A stretch of DNA of 40,393 bases from a virus. Positions 936 through 37,778 of the stretch are shown here, in pieces. The notes beneath the pieces were generated by a model. It did no database searches. It worked only from the letters and a program-made list of their open reading frames with translations, and was not told the origin of the DNA. Every line of letters begins with the position of its first letter. Position 1 is the stretch's first letter. The position numbers were made by a program, and so were the translations under genes. Location of the stretch: IMG/VR virus record IMGVR_UViG_3300034073_001729, positions 1-40,393 of that record. One strand, written 5' to 3'.

Positions 936-1508
936 ATGCCGCTACAAAAGGCTCACGGCGCTCCCTGGCTGTACGACAACGGCACGGGAGACCTTGTCGG
1001 CGTCAAAGACCCGGACAGGTCGGAGTTTTACTGGCAACGCATGCCGCACCTGGGCTGCTTCTTCTCGACGCAGAATCAGGTCGATGGCGGCAGCGCAGTC
1101 GCGATGACGTTCAATACCACGGCATTGTCGCGCGGCATCACCCTGGTGGACTCCTCGAAGATCTACGTCTCGCGCACTGCGATCTACGAGTTTCAGCTCT
1201 CGATTCACATCCACAACGACGATGTGCAAGCGCACCTGTTCGAACTGTGGGGCAAAAAGAACAACTCCGACATCGAGAACAGTCGCTTTATTTATTCGGT
1301 CCCGTCGAGTCACGGCGGCAATCCCGGTTCGCTGATCCCGTCGCAGAATTTCTGGCTGTCATTGGAGGCCGGAGACTACGTGCAGATCTACTGGCTGGCC
1401 GGCGATGCCGATGTGACGATTGCCTACCACCCGGTCGAGGGTGGCAAGCCGGTAGCTCCGTCATTGCTGCTGACCGTCAAGGAGATCTCGGCCGACTGGC
1501 CGACATAG
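936..1508 (+). CDS. Putative virion protein with jelly-roll-like C-terminus
   Basis: Protein of 190 aa, ATG 936 preceded by GAGG. Beta-rich pattern with alternating hydrophobic strands such as IYVSRTAIYEFQLSIHIHND and WLSLEAGDYVQIYWLAGDADVTIAYHP. This resembles the TNF/C1q-like jelly-roll knobs found as head decorations or fibre tips in phages. That fold is my inference; no family is recognised with certainty. It follows the repeat-containing fibre gene with a gap of 7 nt and ends just before a candidate promoter, so it is the last gene of its unit. Confidence 0.55.
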   Translation: MPLQKAHGAPWLYDNGTGDLVGVKDPDRSEFYWQRMPHLGCFFSTQNQVDGGSAVAMTFNTTALSRGITLVDSSKIYVSRTAIYEFQLSIHIHNDDVQAHLFELWGKKNNSDIENSRFIYSVPSSHGGNPGSLIPSQNFWLSLEAGDYVQIYWLAGDADVTIAYHPVEGGKPVAPSLLLTVKEISADWPT

Positions 1509-1540
1509 GTGCCCGTGACGGGAATCGACGCGAATAGACT
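1508..1540 (+). promoter_or_regulatory. Candidate late promoter copy 1
   Basis: GGTGCCCGT (1508-1516), 18-nt spacer, TAGACT (1535-1540). The same 9-mer with the same 18-nt spacing to a TAnnnT box occurs at 16854 and 35008, each directly after a structural-gene stop codon. With usual sigma70 geometry the transcript would begin at about 1547, the ATG of the next gene, giving a leaderless message. That fits the lack of a Shine-Dalgarno sequence there. Confidence 0.5.
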
Positions 1541-1546
1541 GCCAGC

Positions 1547-1879
1547 ATGACGAAGGAGTTTGATCCGACAGATCTGCGGGCGATTGACCGGGCGAAGACT
1601 GACCGAGAGGTCAAAGACCGTCTGGCCAGGGAAACCGAGGAAGCGGATCTCAAGTGGCTCATGAGCAACAAGCGGGGGCGCAGGGTCATCTGGCGTCTCC
1701 TGGATCACAGCGGCGTGTTCCGCCTGTCGTTCAATACCAACGCAATGCAGATGGCATTCGCGGAGGGAAACAGGAACTACGGGAATCGCACACTGGCCAT
1801 GATCCACACGCTGTGCCCTGAGCAGTATCCGACGATGGTCAAGGAGAATTCGAGCAATGAGCGAAACGATGATGACTGA
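1547..1879 (+). CDS. Bbp19-like phage protein
   Basis: Protein of 110 aa matching what I know of the Bbp19 family of BPP-1-like podophages. It has a charged N-terminus, then WLMSNKRGRRVIWRLLDHSGVFR, a conserved segment around NAMQMAFAEGNRN, and CPEQYPTM near the end. In related genomes the gene sits just before the scaffold gene, as here. Biochemical role unknown; probably head morphogenesis. No ribosome-binding site precedes the ATG. The 3' end overlaps the next gene by 23 nt in another frame, and that gene's AAGGAG lies inside this one. Confidence 0.8.
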   Translation: MTKEFDPTDLRAIDRAKTDREVKDRLARETEEADLKWLMSNKRGRRVIWRLLDHSGVFRLSFNTNAMQMAFAEGNRNYGNRTLAMIHTLCPEQYPTMVKENSSNERNDDD

Positions 1880-5011: not shown

Positions 5012-7471
5012 ATGGCAAACGTCCGCACCTTCCAGCGCAGCTTTGCCGGCGGTGAAGTCAGCCCGGAGATGTTCGGGCGCATCGATGATGTGCGCTTTCA
5101 GACCGGCGCCGCGTTGCTGCGCAACTTCATCGCGACACCGCAGGGACCGGCCAGGAATCGTCCTGGCTTCTCGTTCGTGCGCGAGGTCAAGGATTCAACC
5201 AAGCGAACGCGCCTGATCCCGTTCACGTTTTCGACCACGCAGACCATGGTCCTTGAGGTCGGCGACGGTTACATAAGATTCCATACGCAAGGCGCGACAT
5301 TGCTTGCCGGAACGCCTGCGGCATACAACAACGCGACCAGCTATCTGATCGGTGACCTTGTGAGCAGCGGTGGCGTCAACTACTACTGCATTGCGAACAC
5401 GACCGGCAACGCGCCGCCGAACGTCACCTATTGGTACCCGCTGCCGTCCGCCGCCTACGAGATTCCGACGCCGTATCTGGAAGCCGACCTGTTTGATATC
5501 CACTACGTGCAAAGCGCCGACATCCTCACTCTGGTGCATCCGAATCATGCACCGCGTGAGCTGCGCCGTCTCGGTGCTACGCGCTGGACACTGACGACCA
5601 TTCCGTTCGTCCCGGTGCTGCCTGCGCCGACGGGTGTTTCGGTGGCGACGTATATCCCGGCATCGGCAGGGGTCAACGTCGATACCTATCAGACATGGTC
5701 GTATGTGGTCACGGCCGTCAGTGCGGATGGCTTCAGCGAAACGGTGCAGTCCGCAGCGGCGACCGGCAGCAACAACCTTTTCGTGACCGGCGCAACCAAC
5801 ACGATTTCCTGGTCCGCCGTATCCGGTGCGAGCCGCTACAACGTGTACAAGCTGCAGGGTGGGCTGTACGGATACATCGGGCAGACGGCTGGCCTGTCCA
5901 TCGTGGACGACAACATCGCGCCGGACCTCAGCATCACGCCGCGCAACTACGACACGATCTTCGCGAGCGCCGGCAACTATCCGGCAGCGGTGTCGTACTT
6001 TGAGCAGCGCCGATGCTTCGCCGGCAGCATCAATGAGCCGCAGACCATCTGGATGACGCGCTCCGGCACCGAGTCGGACATGTCCTATGCGCTGCCGATT
6101 GTGGACTCTGACCGCATCAAGTTCCGCGTGGCAGCGCGCGAGGCCAACACGATCCGGCACATCGTTCCGCTGACGCAGCTTCTCCTGCTGACCAGCGCGG
6201 CCGAGTGGCGCGTGTCATCGATCAACAGCGACGCCATCACGCCGAGTTCGATCTCCGTGCGGCCGCAGTCCTACGTCGGCGCCAGCAATGTCCAGCCGTC
6301 GATCATCAATAACACGATGGTCTACGTCGCATCGCGTGGCGGTCACGTCCGCGAACTCGGCTATTCCTGGCAAGCCAATGGCTTCATCACTGGTGACCTG
6401 AGCCTGCGAGCGGCGCATCTGTTCGACACGTTCGACATCCGGGACATGTGCTACAGCAAGGCGCCGGAGCCGCTGCTCTGGTTCGTGTCGAGCAACGGCA
6501 AGCTGCTCGGCCTGACGTACATCCCGGAGCAGCAGATCGGGGCGTGGCACCAGCACGATACGGATGGCGTGTTCGAGTCCTGCACGACGGTTGCCGAGGG
6601 CAACGAAGACATCCTGTACTGCATCATCCGCCGGGTCATCAACGGCGTGAGCAAGCGCTACGTAGAGCGCATGGCGACACGCGAGGTCACCACCCTGGCG
6701 AACAGCTTCTTCGTGGATTCGGGCCTGTCCTACAACGGCACGAATACGGCATCGACGACGGTCACGGTGACGACCGGCACGACGTACCTCCCCGGCCAGG
6801 ATCTGACGATTACCAGTTCGGCGCCGATCTTCGCGCACCCGGCAACGACCGATGTCGATGATGTGATCGTCCTGACGACCGCTGATGGCCAGCAGTACCG
6901 GCTGCGCATCATCAGCACCACCTCGACCAGTGTGGCGACTGCGCGCACGGACAAGGCTTTGCCGACCGCATTGCAGGCGACGGCGACTGCGGTCTGGGCC
7001 TGGGCGCGCAAGGACTTTGCGGGCCTTGGCCACCTGGAAGGCAAGACTTTGTCGATCCTGGCGGACGGTGCGGTGCATCCTAAGCGCGTGGTGACCTCGG
7101 GGGCCATCACCCTAGAGCGTCCTGCTACCATCGTGCATATCGGCCTGGGGTATGAGTCCGACCTGGAGACCCTGCCGCTGACGCTGCAGATCGAGGGCTT
7201 CGGACAAGGGCGTTACAAGAACGTCAACAATGCTTATGTGCGGGTGTTCCAGTCCAGCGGCGTGTTCGTCGGCCCGTCAGCAACGAAACTGGTCGAGGCG
7301 AAGATGAGAACCACCGAGCCCTACGGATCGCCGCCGTCGCTGCGCACCGGAGAAATCGAGGTGCTGCTGACTCCGTCCTGGCAGGACTCCGGGCAGGTCT
7401 ACATCCGGCAGAAGGATCCATTGCCGCTGACGATTGTGTCGCTGACACTCGAAGTCTCGCTCGGCGGGTAA
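5012..7471 (+). CDS. Tail nozzle-like / stabilisation protein
   Basis: Protein of 819 aa. The N-terminus (VRTFQRSFAGGEVSPEMFGR and ALLRNFIATPQGPARNRPGF) is typical of large podovirus tail-tube proteins that follow the adaptor, comparable to T7 gp12 nozzle proteins. A segment at about residues 205-300 (PAPTGVSV... WSYVVTAVSADGFSE... ASRYNVYKL) looks like a fibronectin type III-like insert. The rest is beta-rich. The open frame extends further upstream, but ATG 5012 is chosen because it sits right after the adaptor stop and starts with the conserved MANVRTF. Confidence 0.75.
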   Translation: MANVRTFQRSFAGGEVSPEMFGRIDDVRFQTGAALLRNFIATPQGPARNRPGFSFVREVKDSTKRTRLIPFTFSTTQTMVLEVGDGYIRFHTQGATLLAGTPAAYNNATSYLIGDLVSSGGVNYYCIANTTGNAPPNVTYWYPLPSAAYEIPTPYLEADLFDIHYVQSADILTLVHPNHAPRELRRLGATRWTLTTIPFVPVLPAPTGVSVATYIPASAGVNVDTYQTWSYVVTAVSADGFSETVQSAAATGSNNLFVTGATNTISWSAVSGASRYNVYKLQGGLYGYIGQTAGLSIVDDNIAPDLSITPRNYDTIFASAGNYPAAVSYFEQRRCFAGSINEPQTIWMTRSGTESDMSYALPIVDSDRIKFRVAAREANTIRHIVPLTQLLLLTSAAEWRVSSINSDAITPSSISVRPQSYVGASNVQPSIINNTMVYVASRGGHVRELGYSWQANGFITGDLSLRAAHLFDTFDIRDMCYSKAPEPLLWFVSSNGKLLGLTYIPEQQIGAWHQHDTDGVFESCTTVAEGNEDILYCIIRRVINGVSKRYVERMATREVTTLANSFFVDSGLSYNGTNTASTTVTVTTGTTYLPGQDLTITSSAPIFAHPATTDVDDVIVLTTADGQQYRLRIISTTSTSVATARTDKALPTALQATATAVWAWARKDFAGLGHLEGKTLSILADGAVHPKRVVTSGAITLERPATIVHIGLGYESDLETLPLTLQIEGFGQGRYKNVNNAYVRVFQSSGVFVGPSATKLVEAKMRTTEPYGSPPSLRTGEIEVLLTPSWQDSGQVYIRQKDPLPLTIVSLTLEVSLGG

Positions 7472-16853: not shown

Positions 16854-16886
16854 GGTGCCCGTAACTATTGCGAGATCATCTAGGAT
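16854..16886 (+). promoter_or_regulatory. Candidate late promoter copy 3
   Basis: GGTGCCCGT (16854-16862), 18-nt spacer, TAGGAT (16881-16886), directly after the giant ejection gene and upstream of the tailspike gene. Predicted start of transcription is near 16893, leaving a short leader that contains GGAG ahead of ATG 16911. Confidence 0.5.
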
Positions 16887-16910: not shown

Positions 16911-19319
16911 ATGACGATATCCTCTGCCAATCGAAAGGCTGGCCCGTATGTCGGCAACGGCACCGCCGCGACATTCCCATTCTCGTTCAAGGTCTTTTCG
17001 GGCGCCGATCTTGAGGTCGTCCAACTCAATGAGAGCCTGGGCGCCGAGACCATCCTGACCATCACGACCAACTACACGGTCGCGCTCAACCCCGACCAGG
17101 ACAGCAATCCTGGTGGCTCTGTCACGTTGCTGTCTGGCCCTCTGCCGACCGGGTTCTCGCTGACGCTGACATCCAACCTGGATCTCGTTCAGCCGACCGA
17201 CATCACTAACCAGGGCGGATTCTTCCCCGAGGTTATCGAGGACTCGCTCGACCGCTCGACCATCCAGGTGCAGCAGCTCGCCGAAGAGCTCGGCCGTACG
17301 GTGCGGATCCCGATCAGCTCCACCGCTTCGACCGCGCTGCCGTTCCCGAAGCCGAATGCCGTGCTCGGCTGGAACGTGGCCGGCACTGCGCTGCAGAACG
17401 TGGACATGTCCGACATCGGGACGCAGCTCACCTATGGTGACTGGGTCTATCAGACCTGGACGGGCAATGGGACGCAGGCGCAATTCGCCTTGACCGGCAA
17501 CCCCGGTTCCCTAGCCAACACGGATGTATCGATCAACGGCGTCACGATGATGCCTGCGACTGACTACAGCGTGGCGAGCAGCCTGCTGACGTTCGCTGTG
17601 CCGCCGGCCAATGGCGACCAGATCCTGATTCGCTACGGTCGCTCTGCTCTCCAGCAGATGACGACGTATGTCGAGGAGACAGTTACGGCGACTGCTGGCC
17701 AGACCGTCTTCACGCTCACCAACACCTATGTCCCCGGCACCAACAGCATCCAGGTGTATGCCAATGGCCTGCGGCTGGTGGCCGGCGTCGATTTCATCGA
17801 GAACAGCCCGACGCAAGTCACGCTGACCAGCGGCGCCACACTGGGCGACGAACTGGTGTTCACCATTGGTGCTGCACTCAACCAGGGCACGAGCGGGACA
17901 CTGGTCTCGTTCACGCCGATTGGCAGCGGCGCAGTCTCGCGCAACGTGCAAGACAAGCTGCGCGAGGTGGTGTCGGTCACCGACTTCGGCGCGGACCCGA
18001 CCGGGGCCAATGACTCGACCGCTGCCTTTCAGGCTGCAATTGCCGTTAACCCCGTCAAGGTCATCGAGATCCCGCCGGGCACGTACAAGATCGGCTCGCC
18101 GATCATCCTGCGCGACGGGCTGACCCTGCGCGGATCTGGCCGCACCTCGACCGTCCTGCAGAAGGGAAACTTTAACGACGCCTGTCTCAAGGGCATCGAT
18201 GTCGATCAGGTTACGCTTGAGGACTTCGCCATTGTCGGCCCAGGGCAATGGGTCGGCACTGGCAACAAAGGCATCCTGATCGCGGTGTCGGTGCAGGACA
18301 TCTGCACATCCATCTCGATGTCGCGCATCGACCTGTCCCTGCTGAACGACATCTGCGTTTACGTCGGCTCCGGCGCGTTCTGTACCTACGACAACATCCG
18401 CTGCCGCACCTACGGCTACGCCGGCATCTTCATCGACGGCGGTGATGGACACGCGCTGTATGCCTGCACCACGCGAGGCGGCGGCGCTGGTGGTCATGTT
18501 GGCTACCTGATCAACAAGAGCAGCGGTGCCTTTGGCCCGACCACCGTCACCATGCTTGGCTGCTACGCCGAGCAGGCGGGCCGTGGTATCTGGTTCAAAG
18601 GCGCCATCTCCTGCATCGCTATTGGCTGCGGCGTCGAAGCGGCGATCAACTTCGGCGCGATCCCGAACGGAACGAACTGGACCATCGATGGCGACAGCAC
18701 CGGCAGCAATGTGACCCTGCTCAACTGCCTGTCACGCAATGACACCATCGGCACGGCAGTCGCGGCCCCGCACGTAGTCGTCAGCGGCAATGCCACGCAG
18801 ACGCTGATCGATGGCTTCACCGTTCGCAATCATCCGACATTCGCCCCCCCGACCTGGGAACTGGATGTCACTGCCGGCGTCAACGTCGCCCTCGGCCGCA
18901 ACGATTTCAATCCGGCCAGGATCAACATCGGTGCCAGCCCAATCAGGTACACGCGCGGCACGATTCGGTATGAGTCGGCCGTGCAAGCGGTGCCAGCCGG
19001 GTATGGTGGCGTCTCGGTCAATCACGGTGGCCCGAGCAAACCTGACATGATGCGCGTCGTTCTGCGTCGCAATGCGGTCGCTGGTGGCGCTGGCAGTGTC
19101 GATGCAAGCTATGCAACCGGCGACGAGGTCGAACTCGCGGATTCTATTCTTGGCAGCAATCACGTTACGACGACGTGGTCGAATGCAACCGCGCTCGGAT
19201 ATGGGCAGGTGATCGCGCCGCCTAACATCGCATTTAAAACGCCAGCCGGCGTCAGCACTGCAAACTCCAACATCAGCACAACGTGCTGGGGTCTAGTCTT
19301 TTACGCTTACTGGTTCTGA
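16911..19319 (+). CDS. Tailspike / tail fibre with pectate-lyase-type beta-helix
   Basis: Protein of 802 aa. Residues 1-130 match the T7-type tail-fibre N-terminal adaptor style (NRKAGPYVGNGTAATFPFSFKVFSGADLEVV). Two further short beta-domains with NGTQAQFALTGNPG and TAGQTVFTLTNTYVPG patterns follow. At about residue 354 begins SVTDFGADPTGANDSTAAFQAAI, the entry motif of pectate-lyase-3-type right-handed beta-helices. This build is typical of spikes that bind and often cleave surface polysaccharide. The catalytic residues and substrate cannot be assigned by eye. The C-terminal 80-100 residues have a different, non-helix character and may aid trimerisation. Confidence 0.8.
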   Translation: MTISSANRKAGPYVGNGTAATFPFSFKVFSGADLEVVQLNESLGAETILTITTNYTVALNPDQDSNPGGSVTLLSGPLPTGFSLTLTSNLDLVQPTDITNQGGFFPEVIEDSLDRSTIQVQQLAEELGRTVRIPISSTASTALPFPKPNAVLGWNVAGTALQNVDMSDIGTQLTYGDWVYQTWTGNGTQAQFALTGNPGSLANTDVSINGVTMMPATDYSVASSLLTFAVPPANGDQILIRYGRSALQQMTTYVEETVTATAGQTVFTLTNTYVPGTNSIQVYANGLRLVAGVDFIENSPTQVTLTSGATLGDELVFTIGAALNQGTSGTLVSFTPIGSGAVSRNVQDKLREVVSVTDFGADPTGANDSTAAFQAAIAVNPVKVIEIPPGTYKIGSPIILRDGLTLRGSGRTSTVLQKGNFNDACLKGIDVDQVTLEDFAIVGPGQWVGTGNKGILIAVSVQDICTSISMSRIDLSLLNDICVYVGSGAFCTYDNIRCRTYGYAGIFIDGGDGHALYACTTRGGGAGGHVGYLINKSSGAFGPTTVTMLGCYAEQAGRGIWFKGAISCIAIGCGVEAAINFGAIPNGTNWTIDGDSTGSNVTLLNCLSRNDTIGTAVAAPHVVVSGNATQTLIDGFTVRNHPTFAPPTWELDVTAGVNVALGRNDFNPARINIGASPIRYTRGTIRYESAVQAVPAGYGGVSVNHGGPSKPDMMRVVLRRNAVAGGAGSVDASYATGDEVELADSILGSNHVTTTWSNATALGYGQVIAPPNIAFKTPAGVSTANSNISTTCWGLVFYAYWF

Positions 19320-23415: not shown

Positions 23416-24163
23416 TGTTTTCCTCCTCGATAGGTTCGGTAGTTGAAATGCCCATGGCCTGCTTGACCTGGGCCAGCGGTGCGACAGGCGGCGGCGGCTC
23501 GACGGCGATGCCGGCCACCTCGTTGTCGCTGAGCAGCACCTGATCCAGGTCGGCGCTCGACGGCAGCCGCTTGGCCAACCGGCGGATGACCGTCTTCCTG
23601 GCCATCTCATCCCACCATTGGACCCAGGGGCCGGAGTTCTTCGCCCTGCTGGTTGCGCGCACCTTCTCGACATCGGCCACGCTCATGACCTCGCGATACG
23701 TCGCGCCGTCCTTGGTGCGAGCAATGGCGTACACCGCGATGGCCTTGCCGCGATCCTCGCCCAGGTGCGGCTTGTGCGAGATCCGTTCGTCGTCGCCGAG
23801 CTGGTAGTCGAAGTCGTCGTGCGAGTAGACGACATGCGCCGAGATGCTGGCCAGTTCGCCGGACTGCCGCAGCTTCTTGAGGATGCCGCCGACCATCGGC
23901 ATGTATTGAACTGACTGGCCGAACAGCACCAGGGCGGCTTCCCTGCCGTCACACAGCAGGCCATCCTGTGCAGCCCGCATGGTGCTGGCCAGCAGGGTGC
24001 GCCGGTCGGCATTGAGCAGGGCCGGGTTCATTTGGACAGCGGTGACCGTCGTCCGGATGAACCGATCAACCGGAATTTGCGACGGCAGCGCCGCCAGAAA
24101 CTCCGGGGCCATCCTGGTAAGCGTAGTGCGGACAGCCTCGATGGGCGTGACTTCATTGCTCAT
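23381..24163 (-). CDS. recT: RecT-family single-strand annealing recombinase
   Basis: Protein of 260 aa. Signature regions are PVDRFIRTTVTAVQMNPALL, TLLASTMRAAQDGLLCDGREAALV, YMPMVGGILKKLRQSGE and KNSGPWVQWWDEMARKTVIRRLAKRLP, which define the RecT/RedB annealing family. It coats single strands made by the partner exonuclease and anneals homologous ends. AAGGAGG lies upstream of ATG 24163, inside the 3' end of the exonuclease gene. The C-terminal tail is acidic and Pro-rich, as usual. Size is typical. Confidence 0.92.
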   Translation of the reverse strand: MSNEVTPIEAVRTTLTRMAPEFLAALPSQIPVDRFIRTTVTAVQMNPALLNADRRTLLASTMRAAQDGLLCDGREAALVLFGQSVQYMPMVGGILKKLRQSGELASISAHVVYSHDDFDYQLGDDERISHKPHLGEDRGKAIAVYAIARTKDGATYREVMSVADVEKVRATSRAKNSGPWVQWWDEMARKTVIRRLAKRLPSSADLDQVLLSDNEVAGIAVEPPPPVAPLAQVKQAMGISTTEPIEEENNDEPVTLSDNE

Positions 24164-26023: not shown

Positions 26024-26428
26024 AATGTGCTCTACTGACCATCCGGTAGCCTGTTCTCTTTCCTCATCCGTCAGCGACTGCCACTCACGGCGAGGCTCAA
26101 GCTGCGCATTGCGGCTGCCGCGTTCGTAACCTTCTTGGTAGGCGCGCGTCCACTCGACGGCTCGCTCGCGCTCCAGCGCCTCCAGCAGCGCCTGATTGAA
26201 AGCGCGAAAGTGCTCTATCCTTTGCTTCAGCACATCCGCCCGGTGCAGGCCAAGTTCGCTTTCGTGCGCCGTCTCCTGCACCCAGTCGGTCCTGTCCAGC
26301 CACTCTTGGGCGGCAAGCTCTTGCCGATGCAACCGGCGCAGTTCGGCGGTCGCCTGGGATTGCCACGTGATGCTGCGTTCGCAAACAGGCACATCAGCCA
26401 GCCGCAGGGCTTCGGGTTTCTCATCCAT
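25994..26428 (-). CDS. Helical hypothetical protein with conserved C-terminal module
   Basis: Protein of 144 aa from ATG at 26428; the frame is open further upstream but that part is a shadow of the next gene. It is strongly helical and charged (TAELRRLHRQELAAQEWLDRTDWVQ... LLEALERERAVEWTRAYQEGYERG). The end, EWQSLTDEE...IEAALKERNT, is shared with the gene at 26594-27091. This tail occurs in many phage early proteins of unknown function. Nearly identical DNA encodes the shared pieces, indicating duplication or cassette exchange. Confidence 0.55.
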   Translation of the reverse strand: MDEKPEALRLADVPVCERSITWQSQATAELRRLHRQELAAQEWLDRTDWVQETAHESELGLHRADVLKQRIEHFRAFNQALLEALERERAVEWTRAYQEGYERGSRNAQLEPRREWQSLTDEEREQATGWSVEHIEAALKERNT

Positions 26429-26597
26429 GGTTCTTCTCCACCGGCACATCGCGCCATTCACCGTCTTTATCGGCAACATGGTCATATTCCCACCATTGCT
26501 GAAGGATGCGAACGGTGCGTGTGGTGTAGCAGTTGAATTCGTTTCTGAATGTCGGCTCTTCGCGCAACACAAAGCGCAGCTTGTTGGTTGGGATCAT
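26421..26597 (-). CDS. Small hypothetical protein
   Basis: Protein of 58 aa from ATG at 26597, overlapping the upstream stop. Sequence is basic and aromatic (NKLRFVLREEPTF, ILQQWWEYDHVADKDGEWRDVPVEKN). The QQWWE...GEWRDVPV ending is common in short phage early proteins. The open frame extends upstream, but the extension is a shadow. Function unknown. Confidence 0.55.
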   Translation of the reverse strand: MIPTNKLRFVLREEPTFRNEFNCYTTRTVRILQQWWEYDHVADKDGEWRDVPVEKNHG

Positions 26598-30795: not shown

Positions 30796-31733
30796 TCCGC
30801 GATGACATGCTGGAAAGCGAGCGCGTTCTCGGCCTGCCGGTCGAGGCGCGCTGGCTGTACGTTTCCATCCTTTTGACAGCCGACGACCTCGGCTGTTTCG
30901 AGGCCTCGGCATTCAGGCTGGCGAGGCGATCAGACATCCGCCGGGAGACCGTCGAGCAGCTCCTGGGAATGCTTGCCGACCAGGATCTGGTGAGGCTTTA
31001 CGAGGCTTCCGGCAAGCGCTTTGGGTTCATCCCAAGGTTTCGGCAACGCATTCAGATTAAGTTCCTGAAGAACCCTCCTCCGCCCGTTGCATTGATGCAG
31101 GACGACGAGGACGCACTGAATAAAATCAAGCAGTTAACATCAAAAACAACCGTTGGAAATCCGTTGGACAACCGTTGTCCATCTGCTGGCCAACCGTCTG
31201 AAGCGAAAGCGAAAGCGAAAGCGAAAGACAAAAGCAACGCACAGCAAGCAGAGTCGGCAAAGGAACCAGAGTCGCCGCCGGAGGAGGCAGATCGCGCCGC
31301 CAAAGTCGATGAAGACGAACCCCGACCCCAACCACAGAAACGGGAGCGCCGGGTCGAGATCGCGCTGTTGCTGCGTGAGCAGGGCGTGGCCGCAATGGCT
31401 CACCACCCGACCGTGGTTGCCTGGGCGCAGACCGGCGTGACCGATGAGCAACTGACCGAGGCGGTCGGACTGGCGAGGTTGCGCAAACCAACGGGGTCGA
31501 TCCCGGTCGGGTACCTGGAGCCTATCGTTGCCGACCTGCGCAAGCCGGCGCCGCCGGTCAAGCGATCCACTGCCGACTGGTGGACCAGTGACCGGGCGAC
31601 GGATGCGAAAGCCAGGGAGCTTGGCATGCAGGCTCGGCCAGGGGAGGAGTACCCGGCTTTCCGGGCCAGGATGCGCGACGAGATCGAGCGGCGTGACCGT
31701 GCGATGCGCGAGCAACTGGGGGCGGTGGCATGA
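30780..31733 (+). CDS. Replication initiator-like protein
   Basis: Protein of 317 aa. Residues 1-95 (MPCRLIRDDMLESERVLGLPVEARWLYVSILLTADDLGCF ... DQDLVRLYEASGKRFGFIPRF) form a winged-helix domain typical of phage replication proteins of the lambda O / DnaD-like type. A low-complexity linker (about residues 115-190, with AKAKAKAKDK) follows. The C-terminal part is helical with a basic Pro/Trp segment. It probably binds origin DNA and loads host helicase. The DNA encoding the linker contains iteron-like repeats next to an AT-rich tract, as in lambda O. Confidence 0.68.
   Translation: MPCRLIRDDMLESERVLGLPVEARWLYVSILLTADDLGCFEASAFRLARRSDIRRETVEQLLGMLADQDLVRLYEASGKRFGFIPRFRQRIQIKFLKNPPPPVALMQDDEDALNKIKQLTSKTTVGNPLDNRCPSAGQPSEAKAKAKAKDKSNAQQAESAKEPESPPEEADRAAKVDEDEPRPQPQKRERRVEIALLLREQGVAAMAHHPTVVAWAQTGVTDEQLTEAVGLARLRKPTGSIPVGYLEPIVADLRKPAPPVKRSTADWWTSDRATDAKARELGMQARPGEEYPAFRARMRDEIERRDRAMREQLGAVA
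31117..31226. other. Candidate replication origin inside the initiator gene
   Basis: An AT-rich tract (31117-31149) is followed by units starting at 31150, 31161 and 31172 (each CCGTTG) and degenerate units at 31183 and 31194, all in an 11-bp register. GGACAAC-C-GTTGTCC (31166-31180) is a perfect palindrome with a 1-nt centre. Four GCGAAA copies follow at 31203-31226. Confidence 0.5.
31203..31226. repeat. Four tandem GCGAAA hexamers
   Basis: Perfect (GCGAAA)4 encoding alternating Ala-Lys in the linker of the initiator protein. Prone to copy-number change; it may also contribute a bent or easily melted flank to the putative origin. Confidence 0.9.
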
Positions 31734-32479
31734 TCCACTACCACGGATTGCCGGTGACGCCCATTGAGGCGGCGATTGCAGCAGTGCGCGGCGGACACGC
31801 GTTCGTATCGTTCGCGCACCCGGAGCAGTTGGGCCTCGCGCTGGAGGTTTGCCAGACTCTGGCGCTGGACAACGGTGCGTTTTCGGCCTGGAAGGTAGGC
31901 GCCGCCCTAACGGACTGGTCGAAGTATTACGACTGGATCGGGCATATGCACCGGCTGCCGCAATTCGATTTCGCGGTGATCCCTGACGTGATCGACGGCG
32001 ACGAGGAAGCCAACGACCGGCTGCTGGACGACTGGCCTTGGCGGACGGGGCGCTGGCGCCATGTCGGGGTGCCGGTCTGGCACCTGCACGAGTCTCTCGA
32101 GCGGCTGGAGCGGCTGGCGGCGAACTGGCCGCGCGTGGCACTCGGGTCAAGCGGAGCGTATGCGACGGTGGGTTCGACTTCGTGGTGGGCGAGGATGAGC
32201 GAAGCGATGGATGTGCTGTGCGACCGCGACGGCCGGCCGACGACGAAGCTGCACGGCCTGCGGATGCTGGACACGGATGTGTTTCCGTCGTTCCCGTTTT
32301 CGTCGGCGGACTCCACAAACATCGGGCGCAACGTCGGCATCGACTCCAGGTGGCGCGGAACCTACACCCCGGCCAGCAAAGCGGGGCGAGCCGCAGTGAT
32401 TCGGGAGCGCATTGAGGTGGTGCAAGGCGCGACGTACTGGGTCGATGGCCCGCAACAGGACGACTGGTTGGCAGCATGA
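31730..32479 (+). CDS. DpdA/TGT-like putative DNA base-exchange enzyme
   Basis: Protein of 249 aa. Motif order parallels tRNA-guanine transglycosylases: LDNGAFSAW (D47, cf. TDSGGFQ), VIPDVIDGD (D86), VPVWHLHES, ALGSSG (139-142), KLHGLRML (175-180) and SADSTNIGRN (D194). I recognise this set from phage proteins assigned to the DpdA group, which swap guanine in DNA for a 7-deazaguanine and so evade restriction. No queC/D/E or folE genes are present, so the precursor would come from the host. The fold and activity are inferred; it could be another TIM-barrel enzyme. It overlaps its neighbours by 4 nt, between replication and packaging genes. Confidence 0.5.
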   Translation: MIHYHGLPVTPIEAAIAAVRGGHAFVSFAHPEQLGLALEVCQTLALDNGAFSAWKVGAALTDWSKYYDWIGHMHRLPQFDFAVIPDVIDGDEEANDRLLDDWPWRTGRWRHVGVPVWHLHESLERLERLAANWPRVALGSSGAYATVGSTSWWARMSEAMDVLCDRDGRPTTKLHGLRMLDTDVFPSFPFSSADSTNIGRNVGIDSRWRGTYTPASKAGRAAVIRERIEVVQGATYWVDGPQQDDWLAA

Positions 32480-32691
32480 GCAGCGACGAAACCTACGACC
32501 CGATCGAGACGCCGGTCCGGACGCCGCAGCCTGCCGGCATCCTGCCGCGCGATCTTGAGCGCCGCCTGATCCTGGCTAGCCAGTTGCCGGTCGAGCGCGA
32601 TCGTCTGCGGGCCATCGACAACGCCGTGACGTTGGGCCGCCTGCACTACCCGCATCTCTGGCGACGGGAGGCGCGCAAGCCGTGGCTGTGA
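32476..32691 (+). CDS. Small hypothetical protein
   Basis: Protein of 71 aa. A disordered N-terminus with Pro (DETYDPIETPVRTPQPAG) is followed by a helical basic part (LPRDLERRLILASQLPVERDRLRAIDNAVTLGRLHYPHLW). No domain recognised. It overlaps the DpdA-like gene by 4 nt and the next gene by 10 nt, so it belongs to the same translational chain. Confidence 0.55.
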   Translation: MSSDETYDPIETPVRTPQPAGILPRDLERRLILASQLPVERDRLRAIDNAVTLGRLHYPHLWRREARKPWL

Positions 32692-32945
32692 CCGAGTGCC
32701 TCGGCTGCGAGCTGATCGGCGTCGATGGCCGGCAGGTGACGCTGCATGACGGAACGGTGGTCTGCAACCAGTGCGAGCAGTGGCGAATGGAGTGCGAGGC
32801 CAGACACCTGCTAAACATGCCTCTAGGACCGCGTAGGAAGGCGCTAGACGCGATCAGCGAGAAAAGAGGTCCGAAGGTACTGGGGCCGCTGAAGAATCGA
32901 ATGGAGGCGCTCTGGCGCGGTCGTAGGGGTATCGGCGGTGGATGA
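32682..32945 (+). CDS. Small zinc-ribbon-like protein
   Basis: Protein of 87 aa starting at GTG 32682. MAVTECLGCELIG (CxxC) and VVCNQCEQWRMECEARHLLNMP (CxxC) form a short zinc ribbon, followed by a basic helical tail (PRRKALDAISEKRGPKVLGPLKNRMEALWRGRRG). The WR.ECEAR..L.MP segment recurs in phage proteins of unknown function. Possibly nucleic-acid binding. It ends at an ATGA overlap with the next gene. Confidence 0.6.
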   Translation: MAVTECLGCELIGVDGRQVTLHDGTVVCNQCEQWRMECEARHLLNMPLGPRRKALDAISEKRGPKVLGPLKNRMEALWRGRRGIGGG

Positions 32946-33211
32946 GGGGCGACATGGGTAAACGAATCGTCCTAGTGGCGGTCAATGATCAGGGTCGGCG
33001 CATTGGGATGAGCCACCACAACGCCAGGATTCCGGATACCGTGGTGGCCGCGATCCGGCTCGCGCACGAACAGGACGGGGTTGGCTACCGGCAGTTGGCC
33101 AGGATTCACGGATTGAGCCGGCACACTGTGGCAAAATTGTGCCGCTATGAGCGCCGATGGCAGATGCCTTTTGCCTGGAAACGAGTGGTGGTGAATGATG
33201 AACACGGCTGA
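32942..33211 (+). CDS. Small HTH protein before terminase
   Basis: Protein of 89 aa from ATG 32942, overlapping the previous stop; ATG 32954 with GAGGGG upstream is an alternative start. IPDTVVAAIRLAHEQDGVGYRQLARIHGLSRHTVAKLCRYERR is a clear helix-turn-helix of the resolvase/transposase-like class, recognition helix SRHTVAKLCRYE. As the last regulator-like gene before packaging genes it is a candidate late activator for the GGTGCCCGT promoters. That is a guess from position. Confidence 0.65.
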   Translation: MRGDMGKRIVLVAVNDQGRRIGMSHHNARIPDTVVAAIRLAHEQDGVGYRQLARIHGLSRHTVAKLCRYERRWQMPFAWKRVVVNDEHG

Positions 33212-33692
33212 ACGGATGAAGACCAGGGTCGGTGACCGTCCGTCTAAGGGAACAAGGGGACGGCTACCAGAACCGGTTCCGGTTGAGCATGCTGATGCGA
33301 TTATCGAGTGGATCGCGCAGGGAAAGACGCTGCGACAGTGGTGTCGGGATCATGAGATCCATTACGGGACCGTCTACCTATGGCTGGCAAAGGACAAGAT
33401 TTTTGCTCAACGCTTCGCGGAGGCAAGGGCAATTGGGGCGGACTGCATTGCCGAGGAAGTGCTGGCAATTGCGGATACGACGCAGGAAGGCGTTACGACC
33501 AGAATCACTGAGCGCGGGGTCGAAGAGACCCGGGAGGATATGCTCGGGCATCGCAAGCTGCAGGTTGAGACGCGGCTTAAGTTGCTGGCCAAGTGGTTCC
33601 CGCAGAAGTACGGGGACAAGGTCGATCTGCAGCATGGTGGTTCGATCACGCTGACGGTGGCGACCGGCATCCCCGATGCAGAAGTCGATTGA
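33195..33692 (+). CDS. terS: Terminase small subunit
   Basis: Protein of 165 aa. HTH region EHADAIIEWIAQGKTLRQWCRDHEIHYGTVYLWLAKDKIFAQRFAEARAIGADCIAEEVLAIAD is the characteristic N-terminal DNA-binding domain of terminase small subunits of this type. The segment LGHRKLQVETRLKLLAKWFPQKYGDKVDLQHGG is a family hallmark. It recognises the packaging site and feeds DNA to the large subunit, whose gene overlaps by 17 nt. Two ATGs (MMN) are adjacent. Confidence 0.88.
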   Translation: MMNTAERMKTRVGDRPSKGTRGRLPEPVPVEHADAIIEWIAQGKTLRQWCRDHEIHYGTVYLWLAKDKIFAQRFAEARAIGADCIAEEVLAIADTTQEGVTTRITERGVEETREDMLGHRKLQVETRLKLLAKWFPQKYGDKVDLQHGGSITLTVATGIPDAEVD

Positions 33693-35007
33693 CCTAGGCT
33701 ACAGGCCGCGTCCCTGGCAGCTTGAGTGTCACAAGCAGCGCAAGCGATTCACTGTCCTGGCGCTGCATCGCCGCGCCGGCAAGACGGAACTGGCGCTGAT
33801 GGAGTTGATCGACAAGGCGCTCAAGTGCCGCAAGGAACTGGGCCTGTTCTTCTACGTCGCGCCGTTTCTAAAGCAGGCAAAGGCCATCGCTTGGCAGCGC
33901 CTGAAGACCAGGATAGAGCCGCTGCGGCAGGTCAATGCCGTGACGATCAGCGAGGTGGATCTGTCGGTCACGTTCCTGCACAACGGCGCAATGATCCGCG
34001 TGTTCGGGGCTGACAATCCGGATGCTGCGCGTGGTGTCCGCCTGGATGGCGTCGTGCTCGACGAGGTCGCTCAGATCAAGCCGGAGATCTGGCAAGACGT
34101 GCTTCAACCGGCGCTGTCAGACCGCCTGGGCTGGGCCATGATGATCGGCACACCCTCCGGCATCAACCTGTTCAGCGAGCTGTACTATCGGGCGCAGGAT
34201 CTGCCGGACTGGCATGCCGCGAGGTACACGGTCAACGATACCTCGGCCATGGATCCGCAGGAGGTGGAGCGCCTCCAGCGAGACATGAGCGAGGCCAGCT
34301 TCGCGCGCGAGTATCTGTGCGACTTCAGCGCTGCCGGCGACGACCAGTTGATCCCGCTGGCCCTGGCCGAGGAGGCCGCGCGGCGGACGTACAGCAAGGA
34401 CGCCATTGAGCATGCGCCGACGATCCTCGGCGTGGATCCGGCCCGGTTTGGTGACGACCGCAGCGTCATCGTGCGCCGCCAGGGGCTGCAGATGTTCGCA
34501 GCGACCGTCTACCGTGGCCTGGACAACATGGATCTGGCTGGCCGGGTGGCTGCGCAGATCATCGAGCATGAGCCGGATGCGGTGTTCATCGATTCCGGCG
34601 CCGGTGCCGGCGTCATCGACCGCCTGCGGCAGCTCGATCACGATGTCATCGAGGTTCCGTTCGGCGGGCGGGCCAATGCTGCCAACCTGTTCCTCAACCG
34701 CCGGGCCGAAATGTGGTGGTCCGTCCGCGAATGGCTGGAGCAAGGCGGGGCGATCCCGAATGACATCGGCCTGAAGCAGGAACTGGCCACGCCGATCTAC
34801 TGGTACGACCAGCAGGGGCGCCGGGTGCTTGAGCCGAAGGACCGCATCAAGGAGCGCTTGCAGGGCGGCGGGTCACCAGACATGGCCGACGCCCTGGCAC
34901 TCACGTTTGCGCATCCTGTCGGCAAGCGCCTGCCACGCGACATCTACGAGCGGGTGCGGCGCGCCAAGTCCGAAGAGTACGACCCGTATCGGGGCGTGTT
35001 GCAGTAG
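33676..35007 (+). CDS. terL: Terminase large subunit
   Basis: Protein of 443 aa. Walker A HRRAGKT (residues 31-37), Walker B VVLDE (126-130, with D129 and E130), and the RNase H-like nuclease with GVDPARFGDD (D254), VFIDSGAGAG (D306) and DMADALAL (D402 and D405). It powers DNA translocation into the head through the portal and cuts concatemers. Start codon and overlap with terS are normal. The packaging mode (headful or cohesive ends) cannot be told from motifs by eye. Confidence 0.93.
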   Translation: MQKSIDLGYRPRPWQLECHKQRKRFTVLALHRRAGKTELALMELIDKALKCRKELGLFFYVAPFLKQAKAIAWQRLKTRIEPLRQVNAVTISEVDLSVTFLHNGAMIRVFGADNPDAARGVRLDGVVLDEVAQIKPEIWQDVLQPALSDRLGWAMMIGTPSGINLFSELYYRAQDLPDWHAARYTVNDTSAMDPQEVERLQRDMSEASFAREYLCDFSAAGDDQLIPLALAEEAARRTYSKDAIEHAPTILGVDPARFGDDRSVIVRRQGLQMFAATVYRGLDNMDLAGRVAAQIIEHEPDAVFIDSGAGAGVIDRLRQLDHDVIEVPFGGRANAANLFLNRRAEMWWSVREWLEQGGAIPNDIGLKQELATPIYWYDQQGRRVLEPKDRIKERLQGGGSPDMADALALTFAHPVGKRLPRDIYERVRRAKSEEYDPYRGVLQ

Positions 35008-35040
35008 GGTGCCCGTGATTGATGGGCGGTCGGGTATGTT
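35008..35040 (+). promoter_or_regulatory. Candidate late promoter copy 2
   Basis: GGTGCCCGT (35008-35016), 18-nt spacer, TATGTT (35035-35040), immediately after the terL stop. Predicted start near 35047 and a 20-nt leader with AGGAGA before ATG 35067. It would drive the portal unit. Confidence 0.5.
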
Positions 35041-35066: not shown

Positions 35067-35444
35067 ATGTTCGGATTTGACATCGGCGGTCTGCTTGGCG
35101 GTGCTATCGGAGGCCTCATCGGCGGCATCATGGGTCCACTTGGCAGTCTGGCCGGCGGCATGAAGGGCTATGCAAAGCGGTCGGATGTCGGCCGGCAAAT
35201 GAAGCACCAGTTGCAGCAACAGGAAGCTGCGCAGCGCCAGACCCTGGCGGCATCGGAGCGGCAGCGGCAGGTCAGCGAGCAGGCCATGAACCGTGCCAAC
35301 CAGCGTCAGCCCAATGTGCGCGGCATCATGGAAGGCGCGATGCAACAGGCTGCTGGTGGCCCGTCTGGCACGATGCTCACCGGGCCCTCCGGCATTGCGC
35401 CAGGAGATTTGAATTTAGGCAGAGCCACTCTTCTAGGCTCATAA
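35067..35444 (+). CDS. Glycine-zipper virion-associated protein
   Basis: Protein of 125 aa. The N-terminus is a glycine-zipper hydrophobic stretch (FDIGGLLGGAIGGLIGGIMGPLGSLAGG, about residues 4-32). A Gln-rich charged helix (QMKHQLQQQEAAQRQTLAASERQRQ) and a Gly/Pro tail ending ATLLGS follow. The same position between terL and portal holds similar small proteins in related phages. A membrane-active or core-filling virion protein is plausible but unproven. Confidence 0.6.
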   Translation: MFGFDIGGLLGGAIGGLIGGIMGPLGSLAGGMKGYAKRSDVGRQMKHQLQQQEAAQRQTLAASERQRQVSEQAMNRANQRQPNVRGIMEGAMQQAAGGPSGTMLTGPSGIAPGDLNLGRATLLGS

Positions 35445-36057: not shown

Positions 36058-37778
36058 GCCAATTCCCACGCGACACGCAGTCATATTCAAAAACGCCCAA
36101 GCGCGACAAGCTCTTCACCAGATGGGGCATGCTCAAGAGTGAGCGCGCTACCTTCTGGGCGCACTGGCAGGAACTGACCACCTATCTGCTGCCGCGCAAC
36201 GGGCGTTACTTCCGCCAGGATCGCAACCGTGGCGAGCGCCGCCATAACTCGATCTACGACAACTCCGGTACCAGGGCGCTGCGTGTGCTCGGTGCCGGCA
36301 TGATGGCCGGGGCGACCAGTCCTGCCAGACCCTGGTTCCGCCTCGGCACACCGGACCCGGAACTCAATGCCTTCCAGCCGGCGCGTCTCTGGCTAGACGA
36401 TGTCGGCCGCAGGATGCAGGGCATCTTCCAGCGCTCGAACGCGTATCGCGCCTTGCATCAGATGTACGAGGAACTCGGGTGCTTCGGCACCGCGTCGTCG
36501 CTGCTGCTGCCGGACTACGACAACGTCATCCATCTGTATCCCTCGACAGTCGGCGAGTTCGCCGTGGCGACCGACTACCAGGGACATGTCACCACGATCT
36601 ATCGCGAGTTCGAGAAGACCGTTGCCGAGTTGGTCTCTGAGTTCGGCCGCGAGAATTGCAGCCTGTCGGTGCGCAACCTGTACGACCGTGGCAATCTGGA
36701 TTCGTGGGTGCCGATCATCCATGCTGTCGAGCCGCGCGCTGATCGCGATGTCCGCAAGCGGGACTCGCTGAACATGCCCTGGCTGTCCTGCTACTTCGAG
36801 GTCGGTGGCGAGCCGGACAAGTTCCTGCGTGAGTCTGGCTACAAGTCATTCCCCGCTCTGGTGCCGCGCTGGGCCGTGGCCGGCGGCGATGTCTACGGAC
36901 ACTCACCCGGCATGGAAGCGCTCGGCGACATCAAGCAGCTCCAGCATGAGCAGCTACGCAAGGCGCAGGGCATCGACTACCAGACCAAGCCACCGCTGCA
37001 GGTGCCGGTCAGCATGAAGAACCGGGATGTCGAGACACTCCCTGGTGGCATCTCGTTCGTGGACATGAACAGCCCGTCTGGTGGCATCAAGACGGCGTTT
37101 GAGGTGCGGCTGGATCTCAACCATCTGCTGATGGACATCCAGGACGTGCGCGAGCGCATCCGTGGGGCGTTCTATGCCGACTTGTTCCTGATGCTGGCCA
37201 ATGCGACGGCTACGCGCATGACGGCGACCGAGGTTGCCGAGCGGCACGAAGAGAAGCTGCTGATGCTTGGCCCGGTGCTCGAGCGACTGCACAACGAGTT
37301 GCTCCAGCCGCTGATCGATACGACCTTCGAGCGCATGGTCGAGGCGAATCTGCTGCCGCCGCCGCCGCCAGAACTGGCCGGCATGGAGCTGCAGGTCGAG
37401 TTCGTTTCCATGCTGGCGCAGGCGCAGCGCGCGGTCGGCACAAACAGCGTGGACCGATTCGTGGGCAACCTGGGCGCCATCGCGCAGATGAAGCCAGATG
37501 TGCTTGACAAGTTCGACAGTGATGCCTGGGCAGATGCCTATGCCGACATGCTTGGAGTCGATCCGAAGATCATCGTTGCGAATGAGCAGGTCGCTGTCGT
37601 GCGGCAGGCTCGGGACCGTGCCATGGCTGCCCAGGCGGAAATGGCGGCCATGGAACAGCAGGCCAAGGTAGCGAAGGATCTAGCCGCCGCGCCGACCAAT
37701 GAGCCCAATGTGCTCATGGATGTGATGAACATGTTCTCCGGCTACGGCAGCCCGTCGGCGGTCGAGGTCGGACAGTAA
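36054..37778 (+). CDS. Portal protein
   Basis: Protein of 574 aa. Early motifs RDKLFTRWGMLKSERATFWAHWQELTTYLLPRNGR and LGAGMMAGATSPARPWFRL are typical of podovirus head-tail connectors. QLQHEQLRKAQGIDYQTKPPLQVP and RTAFEV/NATATRMTATEVAERHEEKL-type blocks also match the family. The C-terminus is an Ala/Met-rich helix (ARDRAMAAQAEMAAMEQQAKVAKDL), the barrel-like extension. Twelve copies would form the DNA channel at one head vertex. It follows the HNH gene with a 4-nt overlap. Confidence 0.92.
   Translation: MSQFPRDTQSYSKTPKRDKLFTRWGMLKSERATFWAHWQELTTYLLPRNGRYFRQDRNRGERRHNSIYDNSGTRALRVLGAGMMAGATSPARPWFRLGTPDPELNAFQPARLWLDDVGRRMQGIFQRSNAYRALHQMYEELGCFGTASSLLLPDYDNVIHLYPSTVGEFAVATDYQGHVTTIYREFEKTVAELVSEFGRENCSLSVRNLYDRGNLDSWVPIIHAVEPRADRDVRKRDSLNMPWLSCYFEVGGEPDKFLRESGYKSFPALVPRWAVAGGDVYGHSPGMEALGDIKQLQHEQLRKAQGIDYQTKPPLQVPVSMKNRDVETLPGGISFVDMNSPSGGIKTAFEVRLDLNHLLMDIQDVRERIRGAFYADLFLMLANATATRMTATEVAERHEEKLLMLGPVLERLHNELLQPLIDTTFERMVEANLLPPPPPELAGMELQVEFVSMLAQAQRAVGTNSVDRFVGNLGAIAQMKPDVLDKFDSDAWADAYADMLGVDPKIIVANEQVAVVRQARDRAMAAQAEMAAMEQQAKVAKDLAAAPTNEPNVLMDVMNMFSGYGSPSAVEVGQ

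Follow-up and report, generated by a model that had tools for sequence, protein, structure and literature searches.

Putative late promoters built on a rigidly spaced 9-mer, and a small HTH protein as their candidate activator, in BPP-1-like phages

RESULTS

Genome and relatives

The window, i.e., the whole stretch of DNA analyzed here, is a 40,393-base virus record (IMG/VR IMGVR_UViG_3300034073_001729, positions 1 to 40,393). Profile and homology comparison revealed that it derives from a podovirus whose head-tail block matches those of BPP-1 and many aquatic phages; the homologous head-tail genes lie in the same order, which places the phage in the BPP-1 (Rauchvirus-like) podovirus group. 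Homologues of the portal, MCP, scaffold, Bbp19, tail, giant virion, and fibre proteins were found in BPP-1 (locus L167), Limnohabitans phage DC33 (L166), ctQRb9 (L010), and others. The relatives, gathered through MCP, portal, TerL, and fibre matches and also including Caulobacter phage Jess A (L248), infect or reside in Bordetella, Limnohabitans, Caulobacter, and Gallionella. The taxonomy field of the DC33 record (PQ492659.1) reads Inoviridae, though DC33 is a BPP-1-like tailed phage. Besides, a queuine tRNA-ribosyltransferase (DpdA-like) family protein (phrog_887) is encoded at positions 31730 to 32479 of the window and may be a sign of modified DNA bases.

Three two-box sites in the window

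The 9-mer GGTGCCCGT occurs three times in the window, always on the plus strand, and each copy is followed after exactly 18 nt by a TAnnnT box, precisely as the initial annotation had described (Table 1). All three sites carry the genome's own 9-mer spelling, a spacer within N17-18, and TAnnnT, in sense orientation to a late gene. None of 100 dinucleotide shuffles contained three copies of the 9-mer (mean, 0.54 copies). Repetition alone is unremarkable, since 1,296 9-mers have at least three plus-strand copies in the window; however, when all 9-mers with at least three copies were tested on both strands with spacers of 10 to 25 nt, GGTGCCCGT with a spacer of 18 was the sole one with three copies each followed by TAnnnT. 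Of the 19 copies with a single mismatch in the window, none had TAnnnT at 18 nt. With a profile made from 224 distinct family sites, the three sites scored 17.5 to 19.9 bits and the rest of the window no more than 9 bits.

Table 1. Coordinates of the paired boxes, the genes that follow them, and the HTH gene
Feature	Position	Strand	Remarks
Site 1 upstream box, GGTGCCCGT	1508..1516	+	Predicted -39 to -31 (-35 slot); half proposed to bind the activator
Site 1 downstream box, TAGACT	1535..1540	+	Predicted -10; 6 nt ahead of ATG 1547
Site 2 upstream box, GGTGCCCGT	16854..16862	+	Between giant virion protein and tail fibre
Site 2 downstream box, TAGGAT	16881..16886	+	Predicted -10
Site 3 upstream box, GGTGCCCGT	35008..35016	+	Directly after TerL stop codon
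Site 3 downstream box, TATGTT	35035..35040	+	Predicted -10
Gene after site 1, phrog_528 (Bbp19 homologue)	1547..1879	+	First gene of scaffold/capsid block
Gene after site 2, tail fibre/spike protein	16911..19319	+	
Gene after site 3, 125-aa protein	35067..35444	+	Conserved in five of six relatives
89-aa HTH protein (BPP-1 Bbp27 homologue)	32942..33211	+	Proposed late activator, from homology, AlphaFold2, covariation, and distribution

The initial annotation had also placed every site right behind a structural or packaging gene. This holds at site 2, whose 9-mer starts 5 nt past the stop of the giant virion protein gene, and at site 3, where the 125-aa protein gene that follows lies two genes upstream of the portal gene. 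At site 1, the 9-mer overlaps the final stop-codon base of an open reading frame (ORF 936-1508) for which a family search found no match, so that the label "structural" for this upstream gene is unproven.

Conservation at orthologous gaps

Judged by sequence, matching sites are present in well over a hundred related phages, BPP-1 included. An element composed of a GGTRMCCGT-like 9-mer, exactly 18 nt, and a TAnnnT-like box precedes the phrog_528/Bbp19 gene in 102 of 128 relatives, with the box 5 to 6 nt from the start codon of this gene in 99 of the 102; the consensus is GGT[G/A][C/A]CCGTA, 13 nt, and T[G/A]GATAGATT. In line with the conservation that the initial annotation had anticipated, the 9-mer, the fixed spacing, and TAnnnT recur together at orthologous gaps in BPP-1, DC33, zth2-2, ctEw122, and ctQRb9 (3 to 4 sites each, against 0 to 0.2 expected) and in about 100 further contigs. 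Three gaps are shared by the complete genomes: one ahead of the Bbp19 homologue, one separating the giant virion protein from the tail fibre (orthologues of site 2 in all five named genomes), and one after TerL, either directly or one small gene on (e.g., in DC33); some genomes have a site before the internal virion protein as well. In BPP-1, the sites are at 24132, 20747, and 6185, all on the minus strand. The TerL proteins of the window (33676 to 35007), ctEw122, and ctQRb9 are far from those of BPP-1, DC33, and zth2-2. The post-TerL site is kept all the same, which suggests gene exchange without loss of the predicted promoter.

A blind scan of viral_contigs (2.9 million contigs) with the pattern GGTRCCCGTA-N17-TARATT matched at least 120 contigs, compared with 9 for the reversed pattern used as a control, and none of the control matches fell inside the phage family. 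Among the matches listed, 112 of 122 new hits were at the two expected gaps (81 ahead of the Bbp19 homologue, 31 behind TerL), and 84 of the 122 had a start codon exactly 6 nt past the box.

Promoter geometry and a probable leaderless start

If the second box is taken as a -10 element (-12 to -7), the 9-mer falls at -39 to -31, that is, in the -35 slot, and is unlike TTGACA. No consensus sigma70 -35 (TTGACA-like, 16 to 18 nt from the -10) was found at any of the three window sites, which bears out the earlier statement that the upstream box is not one. Across the window, consensus sigma70 promoters and terminators were in no excess over shuffles.

At site 1, the 6-nt gap between box and ATG would put the start point at the A of the start codon. 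A Shine-Dalgarno sequence was absent from 102 of 109 distinct upstream regions of the bbp19-type gene in relatives (present in 6%, versus 92 to 98% for the scaffold, MCP, and tailA genes), as would be expected if transcription started at the ATG. Taken with a box lying 5 to 6 nt before the start codon, this rarity suggests that transcription from site 1 probably starts at the A of ATG 1547 and that the bbp19-type mRNA is probably leaderless, which in turn supports the predicted placement of the start.

In BPP-1, the site at 6185, which precedes bbp9, shares sequence with a strong intrinsic terminator hairpin downstream of bbp10 (fold z, -3.7; region 6110 to 6195, minus strand), and the predicted start falls inside the hairpin. 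A transcript from this start would not have the 5' arm of the hairpin, so that the hairpin would stop read-through and spare the new transcript. Downstream of the predicted promoter are bbp9 and then mtd, avd, TR, and brt, the tropism-switching cassette.

Genome-specific spellings of the 9-mer

The 9-mer is spelled alike across the sites of one genome and differently between genomes (identity within genomes, 0.76, versus 0.24 in shuffles, with a maximum of 0.39). The window shares GGTGCCCGT with BPP-1 and ctEw122, and GGTACCCGT is found in DC33, zth2-2, and ctQRb9. Other loci carry GGTATCCGT (three copies in L071), GGGAACCGT (two copies; L069 and L046), or AGTACCCGT (two copies; L121), and AT-rich marine-type contigs carry TGTGACCGT. 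Jess A has a 12-mer of its own, GGTGCGCATGAT, in three copies (38560, 22486, and 2268, minus strand), one of them in the gap before TerS; its HTH protein is divergent. Such genome-specific spellings as GGTATCCGT, GGGAACCGT, AGTACCCGT, and GGTGCGCATGAT imply a trans-acting factor. On the opposing side, some marine genomes mix TGTGACC and TGTAACC, and the -10 boxes of Jess A fit TAnnnT poorly.

An HTH protein that accompanies the sites

The initial annotation had suggested that an activator might bind here, or that these might be late promoters dependent on a phage factor, for instance the HTH protein encoded at 32942, and the comparison of genomes favors this proposal. The HTH gene is just upstream of that for the terminase small subunit, in an operon running into the terminase and late genes. 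When the genes for head, tail, and packaging are set aside, along with their antisense shadows, its product is the sole non-structural protein common to all seven motif-bearing genomes compared, whereas both HTH and motif are absent from epsilon15, BcepC6B, and AF. Of 87 contigs carrying the HTH gene, 86 have the motif before bbp19, compared with 3 of 7 lacking the gene (P = 6e-5); the one HTH-bearing exception is Jess A with its own spelling. Neither site nor HTH was found in L037, L144, L136, and L162. Three loci (L155, L158, and L164) count against a strict association, as each has one site before the Bbp19 homologue with no HTH detected near TerS and no post-TerL site. TerS, also a DNA-binding protein, has the same distribution, which counts against the uniqueness of the HTH protein. 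In the Stutzerimonas prophage L247, an HTH relative is present and a clear site was not found.

The AlphaFold2 model of the protein has its predicted recognition helix at residues 60 to 68 (H61, A64, and R68) in a block with pLDDT values of 81 to 91. A Foldseek search with the model gave no match below an E value of 0.001, and the protein matched none of the sequences of solved structures. VIA structure comparison matched a wide range of HTH types (IstA, Tc3, resolvase, DeoR, and sigma region 4), with Z scores no higher than 7, and pointed to no clear relative. The homologues are annotated as an endonuclease in BPP-1 (26337 to 26573) and as a 54S ribosomal protein in ctQRb9 (36495 to 36830).

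Other identities and another candidate were considered. An HNH homing endonuclease was rejected, as the proteins are about 75 to 110 aa long, with no HNH catalytic domain and only HTH-type Pfam matches. Sequence membership in the sigma70 region 4 families was likewise rejected, PF08281 being not found in the window and only 2 of 41 relatives giving a weak match. The DUF7696 protein encoded at 32682 was dismissed as the trans factor because it was matched in only 11 loci.

Covariation of the recognition helix with position 4 of the 9-mer

In a set of 63 distinct HTH proteins whose sites are known, A64 carried the most information on position 4 of the 9-mer, more than any column of TerS, TerL, portal, Bbp19, MCP, and scaffold. 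In proteins of the YER context, H61, A64, and R68, which stand at i, i+3, and i+7 along the predicted recognition helix, each predicted position 4 with an accuracy of at least 95%. Only 2 of 1,555 columns of the six other proteins did so (Fisher P = 0.0009); both, which counts against the specificity of the signal, belong to the fast-evolving scaffold protein, and no TerS column covaried with the 9-mer at 95%.

Arg68 goes with G at position 4, and Asn, Lys, Thr, or Gln68 goes with A, in 50 of 51 distinct YER-context proteins. Loci added later contributed a further 12 distinct HTH proteins accompanied by sites, of about five helix types, and every one fits; two of them (TKSVVAKICQYER with GGTACCCGT) uncouple residue 68 from residue 64 and agree with residue 68. 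This pairing fits known protein-DNA complexes, in which Arg-guanine and Gln/Asn-adenine are the commonest contacts. Outside the YER context, residue 68 alone fails to predict position 4, as the GGGAACCGT phages have Arg68. The tree shows 7 changes (about 7 to 8) at position 4, six at residue 68, and 7 in the joint state, meaning that the two change together. A sign test on independent pairs over supported branches (3 to 4 in agreement, 0 against, and 1 to 2 uninformative) was not significant because well-supported independent pairs were too few. Positions 1, 3, and 5 of the 9-mer, compared with protein columns as well, differ from clade to clade and do not point to the HTH protein in particular.

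DISCUSSION

The sites and their rigid spacing, the conservation at orthologous gaps, the shared spelling, the helix covariation, and the missing Shine-Dalgarno sequence are all computed observations. We consider it quite probable from these sequence comparisons that the three sites are late promoters, switched on by the HTH protein (Bbp27 in BPP-1), at which host RNA polymerase uses the -10. Since the spelling of the sites changes together with this protein, it very probably operates the switches and is the best-supported cognate factor for them. In the proposed mechanism, TAnnnT would be the -10 element read by the host holoenzyme, and the 9-mer GGTGCCCGT in the -35 slot would be bound by the small HTH protein, which would thereby place polymerase at the -10. 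The head, portal, and tail-fibre blocks would then be turned on once the HTH/terminase operon is expressed, and the transcript of the Bbp19-type gene would begin at the A of its start codon, without a leader. The polymerase start, the binding, the activation, and its timing are what we infer here.

The sign of the effect is the point at which another reading comes closest. The sites might be operators, with the HTH protein repressing late promoters early by covering the -35 region and polymerase acting unaided afterwards. The geometry of the binding site would be the same, many phage HTH proteins are repressors, and covariation identifies the binder rather than the direction of its effect. We nevertheless regard repression as unlikely: activation is the better inference because a sigma70-like -35 is lacking at every site, which would leave very weak promoters without an activator, and the HTH gene sits in an operon leading to the terminase and late genes. 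Less likely again is that the 9-mer serves as a -35 for some alternative sigma factor of the host, with no phage factor involved. Its position and spacing would suit a -35/-10 promoter, but the relatives span Bordetella, Limnohabitans, Caulobacter, and Gallionella, and the spelling varies by phage and tracks a phage protein. Slightly lower still, we rate the chance that the element is not a promoter but has a role, at the RNA or the DNA level, in packaging or processing (TerS recognition or mRNA processing). TerS binds DNA and shares the distribution of the HTH protein, and one site adjoins packaging genes; on the other hand, 3 to 4 dispersed sites per genome, always in sense to a late gene, the rigid 18-nt spacing to TAnnnT, and a start codon 6 nt away without a Shine-Dalgarno sequence do not suit such a role, nor does the failure of any TerS column to covary at 95%. 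Chance selection of a short motif, which the many repeated 9-mers in one window might suggest, is refuted by conservation in more than 100 contigs and by the blind-scan replication, and its probability is negligible.

Several known systems resemble the predicted arrangement in part. T4 middle promoters combine a MotA box near -30 with a sigma70 -10 and depend on MotA with AsiA. As there, the -35 would give way to a 9-bp box for a phage activator and the -10 of the host would be retained, although the box, the spacing, and the protein differ, structural genes are served, and no MotA or AsiA homologue was matched among the window genes scanned against PHROGs/Pfam. Mu C, P2 Ogr, and phi29 p4 are small phage proteins that activate late promoters without a good -35, and they bind dyad or further-upstream sites. 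The likeness lies in a small phage protein and in late promoters without a good -35; the box here, however, is asymmetric and occupies the -35 slot itself, and the HTH protein has no family match to them. Sigma region 4 and ECF factors likewise read the -35 slot with a trihelical HTH, and their match to the model is middling (Z of about 5 to 6), whereas the protein here is a free-standing one of 89 aa with no region 2, and transposase, resolvase, and DeoR-type HTHs match the model equally or better. Of 41 members, 19 and 13 weakly matched the profiles of HTH domains of HNH homing endonucleases (phrog_6156 and phrog_20467, respectively), and BPP-1 Bbp27 bears an endonuclease annotation; in contrast, the protein here has no nuclease domain, a fixed position before TerS, and a conserved genome-wide set of sites. 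As for a T7-type RNA polymerase, PF00940 was unmatched in the window, as in the control set, which was likewise without matches, and no polymerase was found among the genes scanned.

Among the open-access papers listed, we found no report of bbp27 as a phage regulator, of BPP-1 late promoters, or of the motif in a phage context. The paper on DC33 does not mention promoters, and those on the BPP-1 DGR used artificial promoters. On balance, it is rather likely that a lone endonuclease-type HTH has become a late activator that replaces the -35 contact, with leaderless structural mRNAs at one promoter, and that it coevolves with its 3 to 4 sites through a simple residue-to-base code, in which Arg68 would specify G and any of Asn, Gln, Lys, and Thr would specify A. 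This would be an undescribed system of BPP-1 and a very common group of environmental phages.

The analysis gives BPP-1 Bbp27, at present labelled an endonuclease, a likely function. It also yields predicted late promoters for this model phage, one of them with the tropism-switching cassette downstream, and for many uncultured aquatic phages. The phages offer a naturally occurring set of regulator variants, each with its matching site, which would make the recognition code directly testable, and the two-box element may serve as a sequence tag for locating the late genes of this BPP-1-like group in metagenomes.
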